Assembly (NCBI RefSeq): GCF_002149035.1
Contig: NZ_NGFP01000074.1
Span: 1-35,187 of the forward strand
Direction of reading: 5' to 3'
Source: Streptosporangium minutum
GTDB taxonomy: Bacteria; Actinomycetota; Actinomycetes; Streptosporangiales; Streptosporangiaceae
DNA: 35,187 nt
The position numbers and the translations under genes were made by a program. Below the pieces are notes generated by a model. That model searched no databases. It worked only from the letters and a program-made list of their open reading frames with translations, and was not told the DNA's origin. Of this stretch, positions 26,306-32,570 are shown in pieces (position 1 is the first letter of the stretch; the number at the start of each line of letters is the position of its first letter).

Positions 26306-26962
26306 TCAGCGGTGCCAGCGTTGAAGTTTGTCGGGATTCAGGACGATCCACACGGCGGTGACCTCGGCGTCGGCGACGCTCACGCTGGCCACCGCCACGA
26401 CCTGACCCGCCCGGCGCAGCACCAGGCCCGTCCTGCCGTTCACGGAACCGACCGACAGTTCGGTGCCGGGCTGGCCGATCAGCAGCGCCGTGACCATCCG
26501 GGCGACCGCGTCCGCGCCGTAGGCGGGGTGGACGGGGGCGCGCACCTTGCCGCCGCCGTCGCTCACGACGATCGCGTCGGCGGCCAGCACCGCCCGCAGC
26601 GCCGCCGCGTCTCCCGTACGGCAGGCGGCGGCGAACCGCCGGGCGACACGGTCGTGCCTGGCCGGCATCTCCCCGCCGGCCCTCACCGGGGGCGGGGCCG
26701 GCTCGGGCGCTTCGACCTCGGGAACGTGGAAGGGGGCGGTCAGGAGCTCCAGGCAGATGCTTCCCGCGGTCCGCATCAGCCAGGCGCGCGGTGTCGCGAT
26801 GCCGGCCCGTTCCTCGTCGTCGAGGGTGTACCAGCGGCGGTAGGTCTCCTGGACGACGTGGTCGGCCGCGAGCTCCGAGCCGAACATCCACAGCGCGATC
26901 TCGAGCAGGTGCTGCCGCTCGTCGAGCATCTCGGCCAGCGACTCGGCGCCGGCCTCGGTCAT
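26306..26962 (-). CDS. Sigma-factor-like partner: ECF41 C-terminal domain with sigma region 2 only
   Basis: This 218-residue protein resembles an ECF41 sigma factor with region 4 removed. Residues about 14-76 match region 2 (LLEIALWMFGS, VVQETYRRWYTL, TPRAWLMRTAGSICLELL). A Pro/Glu-rich linker (80-100) replaces region 4. Residues about 101-216 form the SnoaL-like domain, with the ECF41 signature motifs DGGGK (135-139) and NPDKL (209-213) intact. It lacks the part that binds the -35 element, so it is unlikely to act alone as a sigma factor. It could be a modulator of the neighbouring sigma factor, whose stop overlaps its ATG. Similar region-4-less proteins are known in actinomycetes, usually annotated simply as sigma factors. 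Confidence 0.75.
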   Translation of the reverse strand: MTEAGAESLAEMLDERQHLLEIALWMFGSELAADHVVQETYRRWYTLDDEERAGIATPRAWLMRTAGSICLELLTAPFHVPEVEAPEPAPPPVRAGGEMPARHDRVARRFAAACRTGDAAALRAVLAADAIVVSDGGGKVRAPVHPAYGADAVARMVTALLIGQPGTELSVGSVNGRTGLVLRRAGQVVAVASVSVADAEVTAVWIVLNPDKLQRWHR

Positions 26963-27864
26963 GGGCGTCCGCCCCGTGCGCGTGAGCGTTCGAAGGCCTC
27001 GATCTTGGCCGGGCTGACGATCCACATGAGGTGATGGATGCCGCTCGGCGAAGCGTCGATCGTGAGCAGCGTGACACCGTTGCGTCCGCGCGGGACGAGC
27101 ACGCCGGCGCGGCCGTTCATCTCCACCCACGTGATCCCGGCGCCCGGCCAGAACCGGGGCGCGAACGCCGCCATGAACCTCGCCACCCGGTTGCAGCCCA
27201 GCACGGGGAACCGCGCCGCCCCTCCGAGGCCGTTGCCGTCGGAGGTGCTGACGACGTCGGCGGCGAAGAGGCCTTCCAGGGCGCCGATGTTCCCCGTCTG
27301 GGCGGCGTCGACGAACGCCGCCAGGAGCCGCCGGTGCTCGACCTTGTCGACGGGCTCGCGGCGCACGGCGGTCAGGTGCTTGCGTGCCCGGCTCACGAGC
27401 TGCCGGATGTTGACGGTGCTGAGCTGGAGGATCTCCGCTATCTGCGGATAGGGGTAGTCGAAGGCCTCGCGCAGGACGTACGCGGCGCGTTCGGTGGGGG
27501 TGAGCCTTTCGAGCAGGAGCAGGAAGGCGAACTCGAGCGCTTCACCGCGTTCGGCGCCCACCGCTGGGTCGAGGCTGGTGTCGATGGGCTCCGGCAGCCA
27601 CGGCCCGATGTAGGACTCTCGTCGCACGCGGGCCGACTGGGCGACGTTGATGGACAGCCGGGTCGTGATCAGCGCCAGGAAGGCCGGCGGGTTCTCGACG
27701 GCCGCGCGGTCGGTGTCCTGCCAGCGCAGCCAGACCTCCTGCACGATGTCCTCGGCTTCGGTCGCGCTGCCGAGCATCCGGTAGGCGATGCCGAACAGCC
27801 GTGGCCGCAGTTCGATGAACGCGGTCGCGGCCCGCTCGAGTGCATGCATGTCCACCTGTGTCAT
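26959..27864 (-). CDS. ECF41-group sigma factor (SigJ-like)
   Basis: This 301-residue sigma factor has region 2 (about 17-80, with LFGIAYRMLGSATEAEDIVQ), region 4 (about 112-166, with LTPTERAAYVLREAFDYPY and an HTH ending VNIRQLVSRARKHL) and a SnoaL-like C-terminal domain (about 175-291), the ECF41/SigJ architecture. In this group the C-terminal domain controls activity in place of a separate anti-sigma factor. Here its two signature motifs are altered: DGGGK is DGNGLGG (209-215) and NPDKL is SPAKI (284-288). The ATG at 27864 touches the preceding remnant's stop codon. Likely targets are the NmrA-like and LtrA genes, which carry matching promoters. Confidence 0.9.
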   Translation of the reverse strand: MTQVDMHALERAATAFIELRPRLFGIAYRMLGSATEAEDIVQEVWLRWQDTDRAAVENPPAFLALITTRLSINVAQSARVRRESYIGPWLPEPIDTSLDPAVGAERGEALEFAFLLLLERLTPTERAAYVLREAFDYPYPQIAEILQLSTVNIRQLVSRARKHLTAVRREPVDKVEHRRLLAAFVDAAQTGNIGALEGLFAADVVSTSDGNGLGGAARFPVLGCNRVARFMAAFAPRFWPGAGITWVEMNGRAGVLVPRGRNGVTLLTIDASPSGIHHLMWIVSPAKIEAFERSRARGGRP

Positions 27865-28110: not shown

Positions 28111-28347
28111 TCAGGCGACATGGCCGCCGGGCCGGGAGTCGTCTTCGTGGACCTCGACCTCCAGCACCTCGATCGCGGCGCGCAGGCCGCGCAGGCCGAT
28201 CTCCTCACGCTCCGCCTCCGTCGGATCGAACAGCCAGTCGGTGACCGGCAGTCGCATCGCCTCCTCCGCATGACTCGCCTGGACCTCGGTCAGTTCGATC
28301 TCGACCTCGACCTTGAGCTCACGCAGGAACTCGTGCTCGCCGCTCAT
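28111..28347 (-). CDS. Small acidic hypothetical protein
   Basis: This 78-residue, strongly acidic protein is not one I recognise. The ATG at 28347 has an excellent GGAGGAG site 4 nt upstream. The sequence is mostly predicted helix (FLRELKVEVEIELTEVQ, EAEREEIGLRGLRAAIEVLE) with a central LPVTDWLFDPT. There are no cysteines or membrane spans. It sits between two gene remnants, in the same direction as the sigma-factor genes. It may be a real small gene or a surviving fragment of a larger one. Confidence 0.5.
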   Translation of the reverse strand: MSGEHEFLRELKVEVEIELTEVQASHAEEAMRLPVTDWLFDPTEAEREEIGLRGLRAAIEVLEVEVHEDDSRPGGHVA

Positions 28348-28455: not shown

Positions 28456-28626
28456 GCGGACCCCGGGCGACAGCTCGCACGCCTCGGCCAGCCAGGCCAG
28501 TGTCACCGGGCTCGCGCTGCCGCGACAGGCAGCCGGTACGGCATGCCGTATCCCGAGCTGCTCGACGGCGTCGGCGGTCCAGCCTGTGACATCGTCGAAC
28601 TCGGCGGCCGTCGCCGATGCGGTCAC
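28456..28626 (-). pseudogene. N-terminal remnant of a SAM-dependent methyltransferase
   Basis: A GTG at 28626 overlaps the NmrA-like stop codon as GTGA and opens a 57-codon segment that reads as the start of a class I methyltransferase (FDDVTGWTADAVEQLGI, then VTLAWLAEACELSPGVR). The similarity ends exactly where the SAM-binding motif (VLDLGxGxG) should begin, and the sequence continues as RFCRLRR. The rest of the gene is lost. The coupling to the NmrA-like gene shows that it was the next gene of that operon. Confidence 0.6.
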
Positions 28627-29387
28627 GGCACCTGCTTGCCGGGGGTGTTCTGGTCGAGCCACTCGCGGTAGGTGATCGTGCCGAGCGTGGCGCCGTCCCC
28701 TGGCACGAGCGTGCGCTCGCCCGGCACACTGCCGAAGTAGCGTGCCAGCGGGTCGGTGACCACCTCGCGCGAGTCGCCCCAGGCCGCCAGTGCCTTACGG
28801 AAGAACTCATCCATTTGGTACTGCTGAGGCCCGGCGACCTCGGTCCGGCCGTTCAGCGGCGTGCCCACCGCGGTCCGGCCGACAGCCTGCGCGACCTCGT
28901 CGCCCGCGATGGGCTGGAACCGCACGGGCGCGATCCGCACCTTGCCGTCGTTGGTGGCCTCGTCGGCGATGCTCCGCACGAACTCGAAGAACTGCGTCGC
29001 GTGGACCAGCGAGTACGGAATGCCCGACTTCTCGATGAGCTTCTCCTGGGCGATCTTCGCCGCGAAGTAGCCGTTCTCCGGCATCCGCTCCGTGCCCACC
29101 ACCGACACCGCGACGTGGTGGCCGACCCCTGCCGCCGCCTCCGCGGCCAGCAGGTTCCCCGTGGAGGTCTCGAAGAACTCCATCACCGCGGCGGGCTCGA
29201 ACGACGGCGAGTTCGACACGTCGACCACGACCTGCGCGCCCTTCAGCGCCTCGGCCAGCCCTTCGCCGGTGAGCGTGTTCACGCCGGTGTTCGGCGAGGC
29301 CGCCACCGCCTCGTGACCGTGCTCCGTCAGCTTGGTCACGAGCTTCGACCCGATCAGACCCGTCCCGCCGATGACCACGATCTTCAT
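28623..29387 (-). CDS. NmrA-like atypical short-chain dehydrogenase/epimerase
   Basis: This 254-residue NAD(P)-binding protein starts with the Rossmann motif VVIGGTGLIGSKLV (GGTGLIG at 7-13). It has VAVSVVGTER and Tyr107/Lys111 in NGYFAAKIAQEKL, and continues with an atypical SDR C-terminus (GPQQYQMDEFFRKAL). It is of the NmrA/SDR_a5 type, acting on an unknown small substrate. The ATG at 29387 has GAGGGG about 7 nt upstream and directly precedes the Rossmann fold. Oxidoreductases and epimerases of this kind are the typical partners of ECF41 sigma factors, and an ECF41-type promoter lies 56 nt upstream. Confidence 0.88.
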   Translation of the reverse strand: MKIVVIGGTGLIGSKLVTKLTEHGHEAVAASPNTGVNTLTGEGLAEALKGAQVVVDVSNSPSFEPAAVMEFFETSTGNLLAAEAAAGVGHHVAVSVVGTERMPENGYFAAKIAQEKLIEKSGIPYSLVHATQFFEFVRSIADEATNDGKVRIAPVRFQPIAGDEVAQAVGRTAVGTPLNGRTEVAGPQQYQMDEFFRKALAAWGDSREVVTDPLARYFGSVPGERTLVPGDGATLGTITYREWLDQNTPGKQVP

Positions 29388-29406
29388 GACAAACCCCTCT
29401 GTCGGC

Positions 29407-29431
29407 CCGGGGCGCCCCATGCGCGCCCCGG
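29407..29431. other. GC hairpin in the leader of the NmrA-like gene
   Basis: Arms CCGGGGCGC (29407-29415) and GCGCCCCGG (29423-29431) form a perfect 9-bp stem with a 7-nt loop. It lies between the inferred transcription start (about 29437) and the ribosome binding site, so it would sit at the very 5' end of the mRNA. Confidence 0.55.
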
Positions 29432-29442
29432 TCGCCAGCTAA

Positions 29443-29469
29443 GACAAGACAGCCCCCGCAGGTGTGACA
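29443..29469 (-). promoter_or_regulatory. ECF41-type promoter of the NmrA-like gene
   Basis: On the minus strand, TGTCACA (29469-29463) is followed after 16 nt by TGTCTT (from 29446). This fits the published ECF41 consensus TGTCACA at -35 and CGTC at -10, with one change in the -10. The same arrangement, with the same spacer length and the same TGTCTT, occurs upstream of the LtrA gene. Confidence 0.7.
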
Positions 29470-29479
29470 GCCACCGCGA

Positions 29480-29620
29480 AATTCCCTGGCGAGGGATCCG
29501 TATGATCGCCACGGGGTAGTCGGCGTGGTGCAGGACCGCCTGGCTGACCGAGCCGTGCAGAGCGCGCGGAGCCCGTGGCGGTGGTACGAGCCGACCACCA
29601 GCAGCGAGGCCAGGGTGGCG
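29480..29620 (-). pseudogene. C-terminal fragment of a universal stress protein
   Basis: The minus strand reads ATLASLLVVGSYHRHGLRAL and, after a one-base shift near 29555, LHGSVSQAVLHHADYPVAII. This is the UspA ATP-binding end (G-2x-G-9x-G-S/T) and final strand. The N-terminal half is missing and is replaced by flavoprotein sequence, so the two remnants are joined at about 29650. Confidence 0.7.
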
Positions 29621-29660
29621 GGGTGCGCCGGCGCCCTGCCCGGGCGGCCGGCGGGGGCCG

Positions 29661-30007
29661 GCTGCGCCGCCCGGTTGATCAGGGTTCGCTGGATCTCGAG
29701 TCCGGTGCAGTCCCCGGCGTAGGCGGTGCGCCGATAGGTGTGGGCGCCGATAGGTGTGGGCGCCGATAGGTGTGGGCGCCGAAGAACCACTGGGAGATCC
29801 GCCTGTCCTGCTCGCGGGTGAACGGCATGCCGTACCGCTCGGGATCCTCGATGCCGCGCGCGAGGTGTGCACGTCCGCCTTCGGCCGTTCGCCGACCGCG
29901 ATGGCGTCGACGCCGCGCTCGACGGGTTCGATGGCGGCCCGCGACCCGGCCCCTTCCGTCCCGATGACCAGTACGGACGCGGCAACCCGGTTCTCTGGCG
30001 CGTGCAT
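29661..30007 (-). pseudogene. N-terminal remnant of a fumarate reductase/succinate dehydrogenase-type flavoprotein
   Basis: An ATG at 30007 with AAGGAG upstream begins VLVIGTEGAGSRAAIE and RGVDAIAVGE, the FAD-binding Rossmann start of the SdhA/FrdA/NadB family. After a jump and frame change near 29870 the sequence resumes as ARGIEDPERYGMPFTREQDR, ISQWFFGAHTYRR, TAYAGDCTGLEIQRTLINRA. These are the conserved blocks that follow the FAD site. Roughly 60-80 residues between these parts are missing, as is everything after. A 16-bp triplication further shifts the frame. It lies 37 nt downstream of the LtrA gene on the same strand. Confidence 0.72.
29731..29778. repeat. Three perfect 16-bp tandem repeats within the flavoprotein remnant
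   Basis: CCGATAGGTGTGGGCG occurs three times head to tail. One copy encodes the conserved GAHTYRR block of the flavoprotein. The two extra copies (32 bp) are not a multiple of three and break the frame. Confidence 0.95.
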
Positions 30008-30044
30008 GGTTCTCCTTGCGCGCGTCGGCGACAGCAGCCGGGAA

Positions 30045-31259
30045 TCAAGACCGGACAGCGGCCCGGTTTGTGACGACCGCCCTCGCGAGCGTGCCGGCGA
30101 CGAGGGCGACGCAGACGACCGCGATGCCCGCGACCACGGCGGCCACCCCGATCCACGGCGTGGCTAGCGGCAGCAGCACGACGACCACGACGGCGCCCAC
30201 GACCGCGACGGGAGAGATAACCGGCCTCGCCGAGACGAGCGAGTGGACCGCCGCGAGCAGCGCGAGATACACCCCGACCGGGGCGGCGACCGCGAACCCG
30301 ATGGCCGCCACCTGATGTCTGCTCTGCTCGACCGCGACCTCCAGCCCCGCGCCGAGGGCCGCCAACGCGGCGAAGATGCCGTAATGCCCATACCCCCACC
30401 AGTACGACAGGTGACGGCGATCGCTCAGCCCCTCCCCTGCCGGGCAGAGGAAGTACAGCCACCACAGCGCGAACAGCAGCACGAGCCCGGAGCCGGCGAT
30501 GACGACGAAGGGCCCGCTGATCCGGCCCGCTTCGAGCGCCCCCTCGACTCCCCGGCTGGCGGCCAGCACGCTCTCCCCGAACAGGATGATCGTGAACAGC
30601 CCGTAGCGCTCGGCGATGTGGTGCGGGTGCCAGGTGGTCGGCCTGGCCCGCTCCGCCCACCGCGGCACCGCCAGCTCCAAGGCGGCCAGGAGGACGAAAA
30701 CGGGCAGCTGCCACGATGCCGGCAGGACGCCGGTCTCCACGAGCGCGAGCCGCAGTAGCCAGCCCACCTGGACGAGGCCGATCCCGGCGGCATAACGCAA
30801 CCCGGTGCGGCGACCGTCTGGATCTTCCAGCGCGGCCCGCAGCCACTGGGCTACGAGCCCGACTCGCATGATGAGGTATCCCAGCGTGATGATCCCGAGG
30901 TCGGACTCGCCGACCGCGGCGGGCACCCCCGCGGCGAGCACAAGCACGCCGGCCATCTGCACCATGGTCAGCAGCCGGTAGGGGACGTCGTCAGTGTCGT
31001 AGGAGGAGGCGAACCAGGTGAAGTTCATCCACGCCCACCAGATCGCGAAGAACACCTGGAGGAACGGGATCAGCCCGGCCCCCGCGTGACCACCGGCGAT
31101 GGAGTGCCCGAGCTGCGCGGTGACGGCCGCGACCGCCACCACGAACGTGAGGTCGAACAGGAGCTCCAGCGGGCTGGAGACTCGATGCGGCTCGTCGATG
31201 GGGCGTGAGCTCATCCGGACCCGGATCCGGATGAGGGTACTGGCTGGTAGCAAGGTCAT
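30045..31259 (-). CDS. LtrA-family membrane protein
   Basis: This 404-residue inner-membrane protein belongs to the low-temperature-requirement A family, whose function is not established. It starts the fold with SSPLELLFDLTFVVAV and has about 11 membrane spans. Conserved blocks include FFAIWWAWMNFTWFASSYDT, HHIAERYGLFTIILFGESVL and ALWWLYFL. I chose the ATG at 31259 because AGGAG/GGAG sites precede it. The ATG at 31214 (MSSRPIDEPHRVS) fits the family N-terminus at least as well. The frame is open to 31427 through a repetitive stretch (TGQ/TDQ repeats), but that part lies upstream of or within the inferred promoter and leader, so it is unlikely to be translated. Confidence 0.87.
   Translation of the reverse strand: MTLLPASTLIRIRVRMSSRPIDEPHRVSSPLELLFDLTFVVAVAAVTAQLGHSIAGGHAGAGLIPFLQVFFAIWWAWMNFTWFASSYDTDDVPYRLLTMVQMAGVLVLAAGVPAAVGESDLGIITLGYLIMRVGLVAQWLRAALEDPDGRRTGLRYAAGIGLVQVGWLLRLALVETGVLPASWQLPVFVLLAALELAVPRWAERARPTTWHPHHIAERYGLFTIILFGESVLAASRGVEGALEAGRISGPFVVIAGSGLVLLFALWWLYFLCPAGEGLSDRRHLSYWWGYGHYGIFAALAALGAGLEVAVEQSRHQVAAIGFAVAAPVGVYLALLAAVHSLVSARPVISPVAVVGAVVVVVLLPLATPWIGVAAVVAGIAVVCVALVAGTLARAVVTNRAAVRS
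31212..31233. repeat. Inverted repeat at the LtrA start region
   Basis: Arms CATCCGGA (31212-31219) and TCCGGATG (31226-31233) form a perfect 8-bp inverted repeat around a 6-nt centre. The repeat overlaps the alternative ATG at 31214 and lies just inside the coding region of the longer form. A hairpin here could affect which start is used. Confidence 0.6.
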
Positions 31260-31275
31260 GCTCCTGTCGCTCCGC

Positions 31276-31356
31276 AACGTCTGGTCCGTCTGGCCCGTCT
31301 GGTCCGTCTGGCCCGTCTGGTCCGTCTGGCCCGTCTGGCCCGTCTGGCCCGTCTGG
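31276..31356. repeat. 9-bp minisatellite in the LtrA leader
   Basis: Eight perfect head-to-tail copies of YCCGTCTGG (31285-31356, alternating T and C at the first base for the first six copies) follow a degenerate ninth copy (31276-31284). It occupies nearly the whole interval between the ECF41-type promoter and the LtrA start codon. Confidence 0.95.
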
Positions 31357-31358
31357 AA

Positions 31359-31385
31359 GACAGGGCAGCAGCGCGATCTGTGACA
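31359..31385 (-). promoter_or_regulatory. ECF41-type promoter of the LtrA gene
   Basis: On the minus strand, TGTCACA (31385-31379) is followed after exactly 16 nt by TGTCTT (from 31362). It is the same element as upstream of the NmrA-like gene. Transcription would start near 31353, within the first minisatellite units, giving a leader of about 95 nt. Confidence 0.7.
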
Positions 31386-31539
31386 ACAGGGCAACGAGAT
31401 CGCGTCACATGCGCTGCCGCGGGCCAACCATCCCTACACCTTCAAGCCTCGGTCATCTCCTCGAGTTCCTCGGCCACCGCCGGCCTCCATGCAGGACCAG
31501 GTCAGCCTCATGATTCTGCGGTGTTCAGCCACCAGCCGA

Positions 31540-32090
31540 CGCCGTTCGGCCGCTCGCACATCGACCGGACCGGCCCTGCCGGGCCCAGCAGCCGCCGCGG
31601 CAGCGCCGGATCGACAATGGCCCGAACTGGTCGAAAGCGAAACATCGGTCCACGGAACGGCTGGTGACCTCCTCGGTCCGGTCCGGTCCAGTTCGGCTTC
31701 ACGGGCCGGATCGGTGGACTCCTTCCAGGTCCGGGTCCGCTGGAAAGAGATCTCCCGGACGCGCAGCAGCTGCCGCAACCGTTCCCGGCCGACGGCGACG
31801 GTGCGCACCGGGTTGCCGGCCAGGTAAGCGGCCGGCTTTCGGATGCTCCAGTGCGTGAACCGGCCCAACTTCTCCGGGCGCGTCAGGGCCGTCTGAGCGA
31901 TGAACTCCACGTCATCGTCGCTGATCAGTCGGGGACGGCCGCCCGCCCATCTGAGGTCCGGCGCCTCCAGCCCTCGGGCGTTGAAGGCGTGGATGACCTC
32001 CCGCACGGTGTCGTCGGCGGCGGCGACCAGCTGCGGGGGCGCGCCACTGGCGGACGCCATGATGACCAGCGCTCTGCGGACCCGGATCGA
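31540..32090 (-). mobile_element. Broken IS630-family transposase
   Basis: The minus strand reads RVRRALVIMASASG, DDTVREVIHAFNARGLEA, RWAGGRPRLISDDDVEFI, HWSIRKPAAYLAGN and EISFQRTRTWKESTDP, which are the helix-turn-helix half of an IS630-type transposase. After a frameshift near 31650 the start of the DDE domain follows (CFAFDQFGPLSIR), then similarity fades. The N-terminal helices and most of the catalytic domain are absent, so the element is dead. Terminal inverted repeats and a TA duplication were not identified. Its 5' side is fused to the regulator remnant at about 32090. Confidence 0.8.
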
Positions 32091-32570
32091 GCCGAGAACG
32101 ACCGGCATGAGGACCAGCCCACCCGGACCGCGATTCACGACGCGCTCGGTCCGCCAGCGCGCTTCCTGAAGCATCAACCGGCCGTCGCACCAGTGCAGAT
32201 CCGGGTGCAGGCCGGTGAACAACCTCTCGGCACCGCCCGCGGCCAGCTGCTTGGCGCGATAGATGACGTCCGCATCGAGCACGGCCCGGATCCGTGACCA
32301 GTGCGGCGCGATGAGCCGGTCGTGTGCCGCCCGCAGTTCCGCGGCGATCGCCCGCAGGCCTGCCGCCGGCCGCGCGGCGAGTGCGGCGGCGGGGAGTTCT
32401 TCGCCGAACACGCGCCGGAGGCTGGCCCGCACCTGACGGGCGGTCGTCCTTTGCAACGCCGCCAGGTCGTCCTCGATGGATGCCCCTGCGCCGAGCGGGT
32501 CCGCAGCCAGGGAGGGACGGTCCATCGGCACCCCCGTATCGAACATGTGATCTAAAAACTCTGGGACCAG
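32091..32570 (-). pseudogene. Internal fragment of an ArsR-type regulator with DUF5937-like domain
   Basis: The reading LVPEFLDHMFDTG, IEDDLAALQRTTARQVRASL, APHWSRIRAVLDADVIYRAK and RLFTGLHPDLHW matches the middle of actinomycete ArsR-like regulators that carry a DUF5937 domain. The normal N-terminal part and the C-terminal helix-turn-helix are missing. The C-terminal break coincides with the start of the transposase sequence. A continuous frame runs from this remnant into the transposase, but it has no plausible start or family-like N-terminus. The region overlaps the start of the protease gene on the other strand only in spurious extension. Confidence 0.6.

Follow-up and report, generated by a model that had tools for sequence, protein, structure and literature searches.

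Does a SigJ-like sigma factor of the extracytoplasmic function (ECF) group ECF41, encoded in a 35,187-nucleotide stretch of Streptosporangium minutum DNA (contig NZ_NGFP01000074.1, positions 1 to 35,187; the whole of it hereafter called the window), control both an NmrA-like gene of its neighbourhood and the gene of an LtrA membrane protein? The question is raised by two alike promoter-like elements upstream of these genes, from which the initial annotation of the locus had derived a common regulon. ECF41 factors use promoters of the type TGTCACA-N16-CGTC and, according to the conclusion of Wecke et al. (2012, PMC3426412, main text), generally control a single neighbouring target gene or operon. 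We consider it likely, with a probability of roughly 0.86, that the sites of the window are read by the SigJ-lineage ECF41 factor encoded nearby and that LtrA, NmrA and, in relatives where it is intact, a flavoprotein gene belong to one regulon. LtrA is probably the target of a distinct ECF41 sub-regulon, characterised by the -10 element KGTC instead of CGTC.

Both elements are present as annotated, i.e. at the positions compiled in Table 1, on the minus strand, with a 16-base spacer and a shared TGTCTT. The LtrA site reads TGTCACAGATCGCGCTGCTGCCCTGTC(TT) and the NmrA site TGTCACACCTGCGGGGGCTGTCTTGTC(TT), each corresponding to TGTCACA-N16-TGTC(TT). A third site had been missed, which brings their number to three: CGTCACAAACCGGGCCGCTGTCCGGTC (CGTCACA-N16-GGTC, 16-base spacer) is located within the last codons of LtrA and precedes a decayed fumarate-reductase-type flavoprotein gene. 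The distance of the SigJ gene to the sites amounts to about 1.6-3.5 kb. The pattern TGTCACAN{14,18}YGTC is matched three times in the window compared to 0.17 matches expected from shuffles. In the 9.58-Mb genome (G000) it yields 22 matches, nine of them with the exact N16 spacer, versus 11 for the reversed pattern, so that genome-wide the plain motif is modest evidence. The extended pattern YGTCACR-N10-CYGNCYKGTC occurs five times in the genome, three times thereof inside the window (reversed pattern: 0), and the tighter YGTCACA-N10-CYGYCYKGTC matches solely the three window sites. Since the extended pattern was picked after inspecting relatives, this uniqueness is partly built in as far as the two known sites are concerned; neither the third site nor the counts obtained from other genomes depend on this choice. 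A matrix built solely from 21 NmrA promoters of the related loci described below assigns scores of 39.1 to the NmrA site, 31.9 to the third site and 30.4 to the LtrA site, the latter two being outside the gene type used for training, while the next best of 70,314 window positions reaches 2.3. The third window match of the plain pattern, at 28564-28591, was rejected as a site: its spacer is N17, its matrix score is -3.3 and it looks like chance. Judged by eye, it lies in a coding remnant, presumably methyltransferase-like.

Conservation in relatives, on which the initial annotation had made its proposal depend, is observed in several actinobacterial genera. For the best 80 LtrA loci from one scan of genome contigs, in which more exist, the relaxed motif is found at most 200 nt upstream of 27 LtrA genes, invariably with a spacer of 16, compared to 70 of 6826 stretches of 220 nt taken at random from these loci (1%). 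The strict motif is present in 10 of the 80 upstream regions versus 0 of 6807 background stretches, and the reversed motif precedes none of the 80 LtrA genes. Among NmrA genes more than 60% identical, 22 of 24 are preceded by the relaxed motif. The matrix trained on NmrA promoters recognises 31 of the 80 LtrA upstream regions at an empirical p<0.005, 14 of which exceed the highest of 2033 background stretches. Inspection by eye of 14 LtrA genes of the genus reveals the element in nine, a worn form in one (locus L071) and none in the distant L078-L081. In a quick tree of 81 LtrA proteins all 28 motif-bearing ones (the 27 and that of the window) are placed within a group of 43 with a branch support of 99, while none is found among the other 38. 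This group comprises Streptosporangium, Nonomuraea, Microbispora, Microtetraspora, Planotetraspora, Actinomadura, Kribbella, Embleya, Lentzea, Saccharothrix, Nocardia and Solirubrobacter; more than half of the 38 motif-less proteins belong to what is presumably the family Microbacteriaceae.

Although the search pattern permitted any base in front of GTC, all 21 NmrA and all 27 LtrA promoters have T or G there. The -10 element is KGTC in all 48 of them and is preceded by a mostly conserved CYGYC, for which reason the SigJ branch probably possesses a promoter specificity of its own. The earlier designation as ECF41-type promoters holds for the -35 element TGTCACA (CGTCACA in the third site) and for the spacer of 16 +/- 1 bases, whereas the -10 is not CGTC; we therefore call the sites an ECF41 variant rather than plain members, and presumably they serve as promoters. 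Most sites of 60 additionally sampled LtrA genes are situated some 60-75 nt ahead of the aligned start. This distance is longer in the window because a 9-bp tandem repeat fills the leader, a repeat which, judged by eye, is far shorter in the nearest relative, L069.

The sigma factor itself exhibits the features of group ECF41. Its regions 2 and 4 match PF04542 and PF08281 above cut-off, its linker contains the WLPEP motif required of ECF41, and it carries the SnoaL-like C-terminal regulatory extension of about 100 residues, for which Pfam SnoaL_2 itself gave no reported match. The SigX4 model TIGR02957 aligns to residues 15-291 with 324.4 bits, just over its cut-off of 323.25, and the SigJ model NF007214 to residues 11-292 with 266.3 bits, just below its cut-off of 271. 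The closest solved structure by sequence is PDB 5xe7 (E 1.9e-44, residues 12-255), which we take to be that of M. tuberculosis SigJ. As expected for an ECF41 locus, NmrA (PF05368) and the flavoprotein remnant are adjacent, NmrA-like proteins being ECF41 targets of the class named 'epimerase' by Wecke et al. (2012, PMC3426412). A tree of 48 SigJ-like proteins unites 39 of 41 rows, the window SigJ included, in one clade with a support of 99; these 41 rows were drawn from LtrA loci, motif loci and a search of the genus, and not all are linked to LtrA loci. Outside the clade are seven other G000 proteins as well as L102 and L108.

A scan of 341 family genomes with the extended motif produces 319 matches, located in 140 genomes, versus 8 reversed matches. 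The SigJ lineage, delimited by an arbitrary cut of E<=1e-70 to the window SigJ, is found in 121 genomes; 103 genomes have both, 37 the motif only, 18 SigJ only and 183 neither, and the association points in the same direction within each of five genera tested. A matrix score of at least 10 is reached by 34 of 40 LtrA genes from SigJ-containing genomes (sampled from 38 of 65 genomes) and by 8 of 20 from genomes without SigJ (a single gene per genome, taken from 20 of the 21 SigJ-free genomes that have such an LtrA, G309 being left out). In G001, G095, G097, G098 and G099, which do not contain SigJ, the element is discernible by eye in a worn version, TGTCATAG or TGGCATAG, whose spacer is shortened. 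Within the named loci, SigJ or NmrA accompanies 23 of 27 motif-bearing LtrA genes and 10 of 53 motif-less ones. From this co-occurrence we infer that SigJ, and not another ECF41 factor of the same genome, would drive the sites. Of the original claim that SigJ controls both genes, the conserved motif and its co-occurrence with the SigJ lineage stand as observations, and SigJ would be the probable driver.

A number of observations weigh against this assignment. The 10 motif-less LtrA loci with SigJ or NmrA nearby include three (L114, L119, L122) with a first-base variant missed by the pattern and one (L147) outside the clade, and the remaining six (L100, L101, L103, L135, L142, L156) are without a good site. 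A tree-corrected pairs test of motif against locus linkage, for which only five pairs were usable, is not significant, and the Fisher tests applied to the genome counts treat genomes as independent, ignoring relatedness. The 37 genomes with the motif and without the SigJ lineage at the chosen cut count here, as do the 18 with SigJ and without the extended motif, 8 of which belong to one genus. The motif is kept by the 8 of 20 LtrA genes from genomes without SigJ, and 6 of the 40 from genomes with SigJ score below 10, one of them having a 17-base spacer. Finally, the window locus is partly decayed, and its SigJ displays DGNGL and SPAKI in the place of DGGGK and NPDKL, presumably the canonical residues of the ECF41 extension, and both canonical motifs are present in its G000 paralogues L024 and L026. 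Full-length members of the SigJ clade mostly carry variants of DGGGK/NPDKL, L135 being canonical.

Some of these findings would also agree with ECF41 promoters read in trans by another ECF41 factor, either a SigJ-like paralogue in G000 or a short SigJ in relatives, which we regard as improbable. G000 encodes seven other SigJ-like proteins (E<=7.1e-28), plain TGTCACA-N16 sites are located beside two of its SigJ-like genes (on C36 and C533), the site is retained at the mentioned LtrA genes of genomes without SigJ, and a short SigJ adjoins LtrA in L072 and L091. The C36 and C533 sites, however, are devoid of the CYGYC part, and the extended motif in G000 is limited to the three window sites. Moreover, the seven genus mates without the SigJ lineage all possess other SigJ-like proteins, yet five of them have no extended site, while G008 has two and G011 one.

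It is very unlikely that the conserved element constitutes the operator of a DNA-binding repressor or activator rather than a sigma factor promoter. TGTCACA is similar to one half of a CRP/FNR-type site, and in the divergently oriented NmrA/LtrA genes of L121, L128 and L138 the TGTCACA-like -35 elements, as seen by eye, abut as a palindrome; two polymerases might therefore not be able to bind there simultaneously. An operator is nevertheless at variance with the conservation of two blocks separated by 16 bases, whose distance to the gene is similar in most sampled loci, and -35 element and spacing match the ECF41 promoter published in the main text of PMC3426412. Least tenable of all, to a degree that we consider it nearly negligible, is an explanation by chance or shared descent, with a few matches in GC-rich DNA being carried along with neighbouring genes. 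The relatives are indeed related, and some of the sampled loci are the same assemblies present in two collections. On the other hand, this explanation is already contradicted by the LtrA upstream counts, by the matrix trained on NmrA and by the counts from the 341 genomes with their few reversed matches, and the motif is found upstream of LtrA proteins about 60-93% identical to that of the window, with flanking columns being weakly conserved.

Returning to the regulon read by SigJ, its proposed extent of NmrA and LtrA proves correct insofar as both carry the conserved motif and too narrow insofar as, judged by this motif, more genes belong to it. Of 16 genomes of the genus, 11 contain the extended motif, with 36 matches in total (reversed: 0). 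Genes found downstream of it include NmrA, LtrA and the flavoprotein, and in some relatives also a small acidic protein, a SigJ paralogue without sigma region 4 (sigma4), carboxymuconolactone decarboxylase, cupins, an alpha/beta hydrolase and a P450; some of the downstream frames could not be named. In the named loci, matrix scores of at least 10 are obtained for 24 of 25 NmrA, 28 of 54 LtrA, three of four sigma4-less paralogue, three of seven flavoprotein, three of 16 small protein and three of four cupin genes. Genes without a site are often located downstream of a gene with one, which operons would fit. The gene of the small acidic protein, which is conserved near SigJ and NmrA, lacks a separate site in the window, while it has one in L072, L103, L105, L109 and L239; for its relative in L239 no Pfam family was found. 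The sigJ gene is not preceded by a site in the window, and such a site scores at least 10 for one of 29 sigJ genes of the named loci and for 0 of 8 genus loci (L069 omitted). Hence, direct autoregulation of SigJ is not general.

Mechanistically, the C-terminal extension would, by analogy with the data on Ecf41 proteins, hold SigJ back until some signal relieves this hold. RNA polymerase with SigJ would then read TGTCACA as -35 and KGTCTT with a preceding CYGYCY as -10 region and would transcribe LtrA, NmrA and, where intact in relatives, the flavoprotein gene as separate units. As all window genes involved point in the same direction, readthrough into sigJ may provide positive feedback. According to the main text of Wecke et al. 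(PMC3426412) the full-length ECF41 protein already activates its target, truncation after residue 204 increases its activity roughly 20-fold, and removal of the entire extension abolishes this activity; no inducing condition was known to these authors. The engineered, more active Ecf41Bli 1-204 is resembled by natural short SigJ proteins in 11 loci (L072, L091, L094, L096, L116, L121, L126, L128, L142, L156, L229), which, counted from where their alignment begins, comprise 188-233 residues and have lost most of the extension. They constitute one subclade, corresponding to one change on the tree, and most of them end just before the DGGGK region. The sigma4-less paralogue also occurs in L072, L089, L093, L109 and L130; the six sequences compared retain NPDKL and DGGGK (DAGGK in L109), both of which are altered in the window SigJ, and in L072, L093, L109 and L130 its gene has a site scoring at least 10. 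Both forms fit the published truncation logic, and to assign them the roles of an always-on form and a brake would be speculation.

LtrA proteins form a large family for which we know of no established molecular function. The LtrA of the window matches PF06772 with 316.7 bits (cut-off 31.9), and its AlphaFold model, based on 48 diverse sequences, shows a predicted local distance difference test (pLDDT) score of 92.3; a poor first model from 8 close sequences (pLDDT 52.5) was not used. Superimposed by VIA-align onto six chains titled TMEM175, the model reaches Z-scores of 19.2-24.1 with 297-357 residues aligned at about 10% identity. Four chains of neutral title, 6w8n, 6w8o, 6w8p and 7lf6, which we take to be TMEM175 as well, give Z 23.6-24.4 over the same residue range, and the next unrelated structure follows at Z 8.7. 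This match depends on the second look of VIA-align: Foldseek returned nothing for LtrA at E<=0.001, with its best match at E 0.026. A sequence comparison of LtrA with the PDB gave no chain at E<=1, and no TMEM175 Pfam family matches it. The FSD motif of TMEM175 is absent from helix 1, which reads E30-L-L-F33-D34-L35 (E-L-x-F-D), wherefore we do not file LtrA as a TMEM175 member. F33 and D34 are invariant in the 48 sequences, and the pore-threonine position of helix 1, counted by eye from D34, is usually occupied by A, S, G or T. The fold predicted for LtrA is similar to that of the TMEM175 ion channels, and a channel-like function may be taken as a lead.

The features of the locus are listed in Table 1, the SigJ-like gene having the coordinates originally assigned to it. 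The most likely start codon of LtrA is TTG 31253, which, by eye, is kept in relatives after a GACAGGAG-like sequence, and that of NmrA is ATG 29387. Pieces of the flavoprotein gene at 30007-29668, spread over more than one frame, match residues 1-64 and 96-149 of an intact 576-residue relative (tblastn); the intact copy in relatives (L231) contains the Pfam domains FAD_binding_2 and Succ_DH_flav_C. With this gene reduced to a remnant, the window holds a partly decayed version of the locus. Within the remnant a 16-bp tandem repeat of 3.4 copies is located at 29728-29782. The start of the sigma4-less paralogue overlaps the SigJ stop (ATGA), and its SnoaL_2 score of 22.4 is under the cut-off of 27. 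Directly upstream of the LtrA promoter lies an IS630-type transposase-like gene (31434-32540, minus strand), which scores 49.5 bits against NCBIfam, below the cut-off of 100.

Table 1. Coordinates of the candidate promoter sites, genes and repeat of the LtrA/NmrA/SigJ locus in the window.
Feature	Coordinates	Strand	Length (residues)	Characteristics or basis
Candidate ECF41-type promoter of LtrA	31359..31385	-		pattern, NmrA matrix and orthologue conservation
Third promoter-like site, upstream of flavoprotein remnant	30049..30075	-		extended pattern and matrix
Candidate ECF41-type promoter of NmrA	29443..29469	-		pattern, matrix and relatives
9-bp tandem repeat	31278..31356	-		8.8 copies; most of the LtrA leader between -10 and ribosome-binding site
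LtrA (PF06772)	30045..31253	-	402	TTG start; predicted TMEM175-like fold
Open frame with start of flavoprotein-gene remnant	29384..30007	-		tblastn
NmrA-like NAD(P)-binding protein	28623..29387	-	254	PF05368
Small acidic protein	28111..28347	-	78	
SigJ-like ECF41 sigma factor	26959..27864	-	301	WLPEP linker; full C-terminal extension
SigJ paralogue	26306..26962	-		sigma region 2 and SnoaL-like domain, without sigma region 4

The system shares with Ecf41Bli of Bacillus licheniformis and Ecf41Rsp of Rhodobacter sphaeroides, as described in the main text of PMC3426412, the sigma2-sigma4 architecture, the WLPEP linker, the C-terminal extension, the TGTCACA -35 element, the 16-base spacer and a neighbouring target of the NmrA/epimerase type. 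It differs from them in the -10 element, KGTC after a mostly conserved CYGYC compared to their CGTC, and in several separately sited genes including LtrA compared to the single target of Wecke et al. In Sinorhizobium meliloti RpoE9, as portrayed in PMC6180224, an ECF41 factor likewise has an adjacent target bearing the group promoter, but this sole target is a carboxymuconolactone decarboxylase. Azospirillum brasilense RpoE10 (Dubey et al. 2020), going by the title of that paper, is an ECF41 factor with effects beyond one enzyme gene, which concern motility and lateral flagella, unlike here; because of this precedent an ECF41 regulon cannot count as new for comprising several genes. Apparently new are an ECF41 regulation with a changed -10, the larger regulon and the unexpected membrane protein as target. 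The supposition that the link between LtrA and ECF41 was undescribed agrees with our searches: LtrA does not appear in the main text of Wecke et al. (PMC3426412), and no paper naming ECF41 and LtrA together was found in the open-access literature searched, outside of which are the work of Wu et al. (2019) on ECF41 extensions and a 2021 reclassification of ECF factors. Neither did this literature yield a paper combining LtrA, NmrA and a sigma factor, "low temperature requirement protein" and an ECF sigma factor, or TMEM175 and LtrA; for LtrA as a low temperature requirement protein together with a sigma factor of any kind it yielded two papers, both on Listeria.

ECF41 is a widespread group of sigma factors. 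Tentatively, and with more doubt than belief, one may imagine an actinobacterial ECF41 branch which governs a multi-gene regulon around a TMEM175-fold LtrA by means of three sigma forms, a full-length sensor, a natural short form that stops just ahead of the sensor domain, comparable to the engineered truncation, and a sigma4-less form with region 2 and the sensor domain, possibly acting as brake or ligand sink, with LtrA being an ion channel or transporter switched on together with redox enzymes. The natural short and sigma4-less SigJ forms represent ready-made tools for studying the control that the ECF41 extension exerts on its sigma factor. A conserved regulon with several separate sites and a membrane protein would offer more handles for finding the ECF41 signal, and the shared regulon, together with the predicted channel-like fold, would make the role of LtrA testable.

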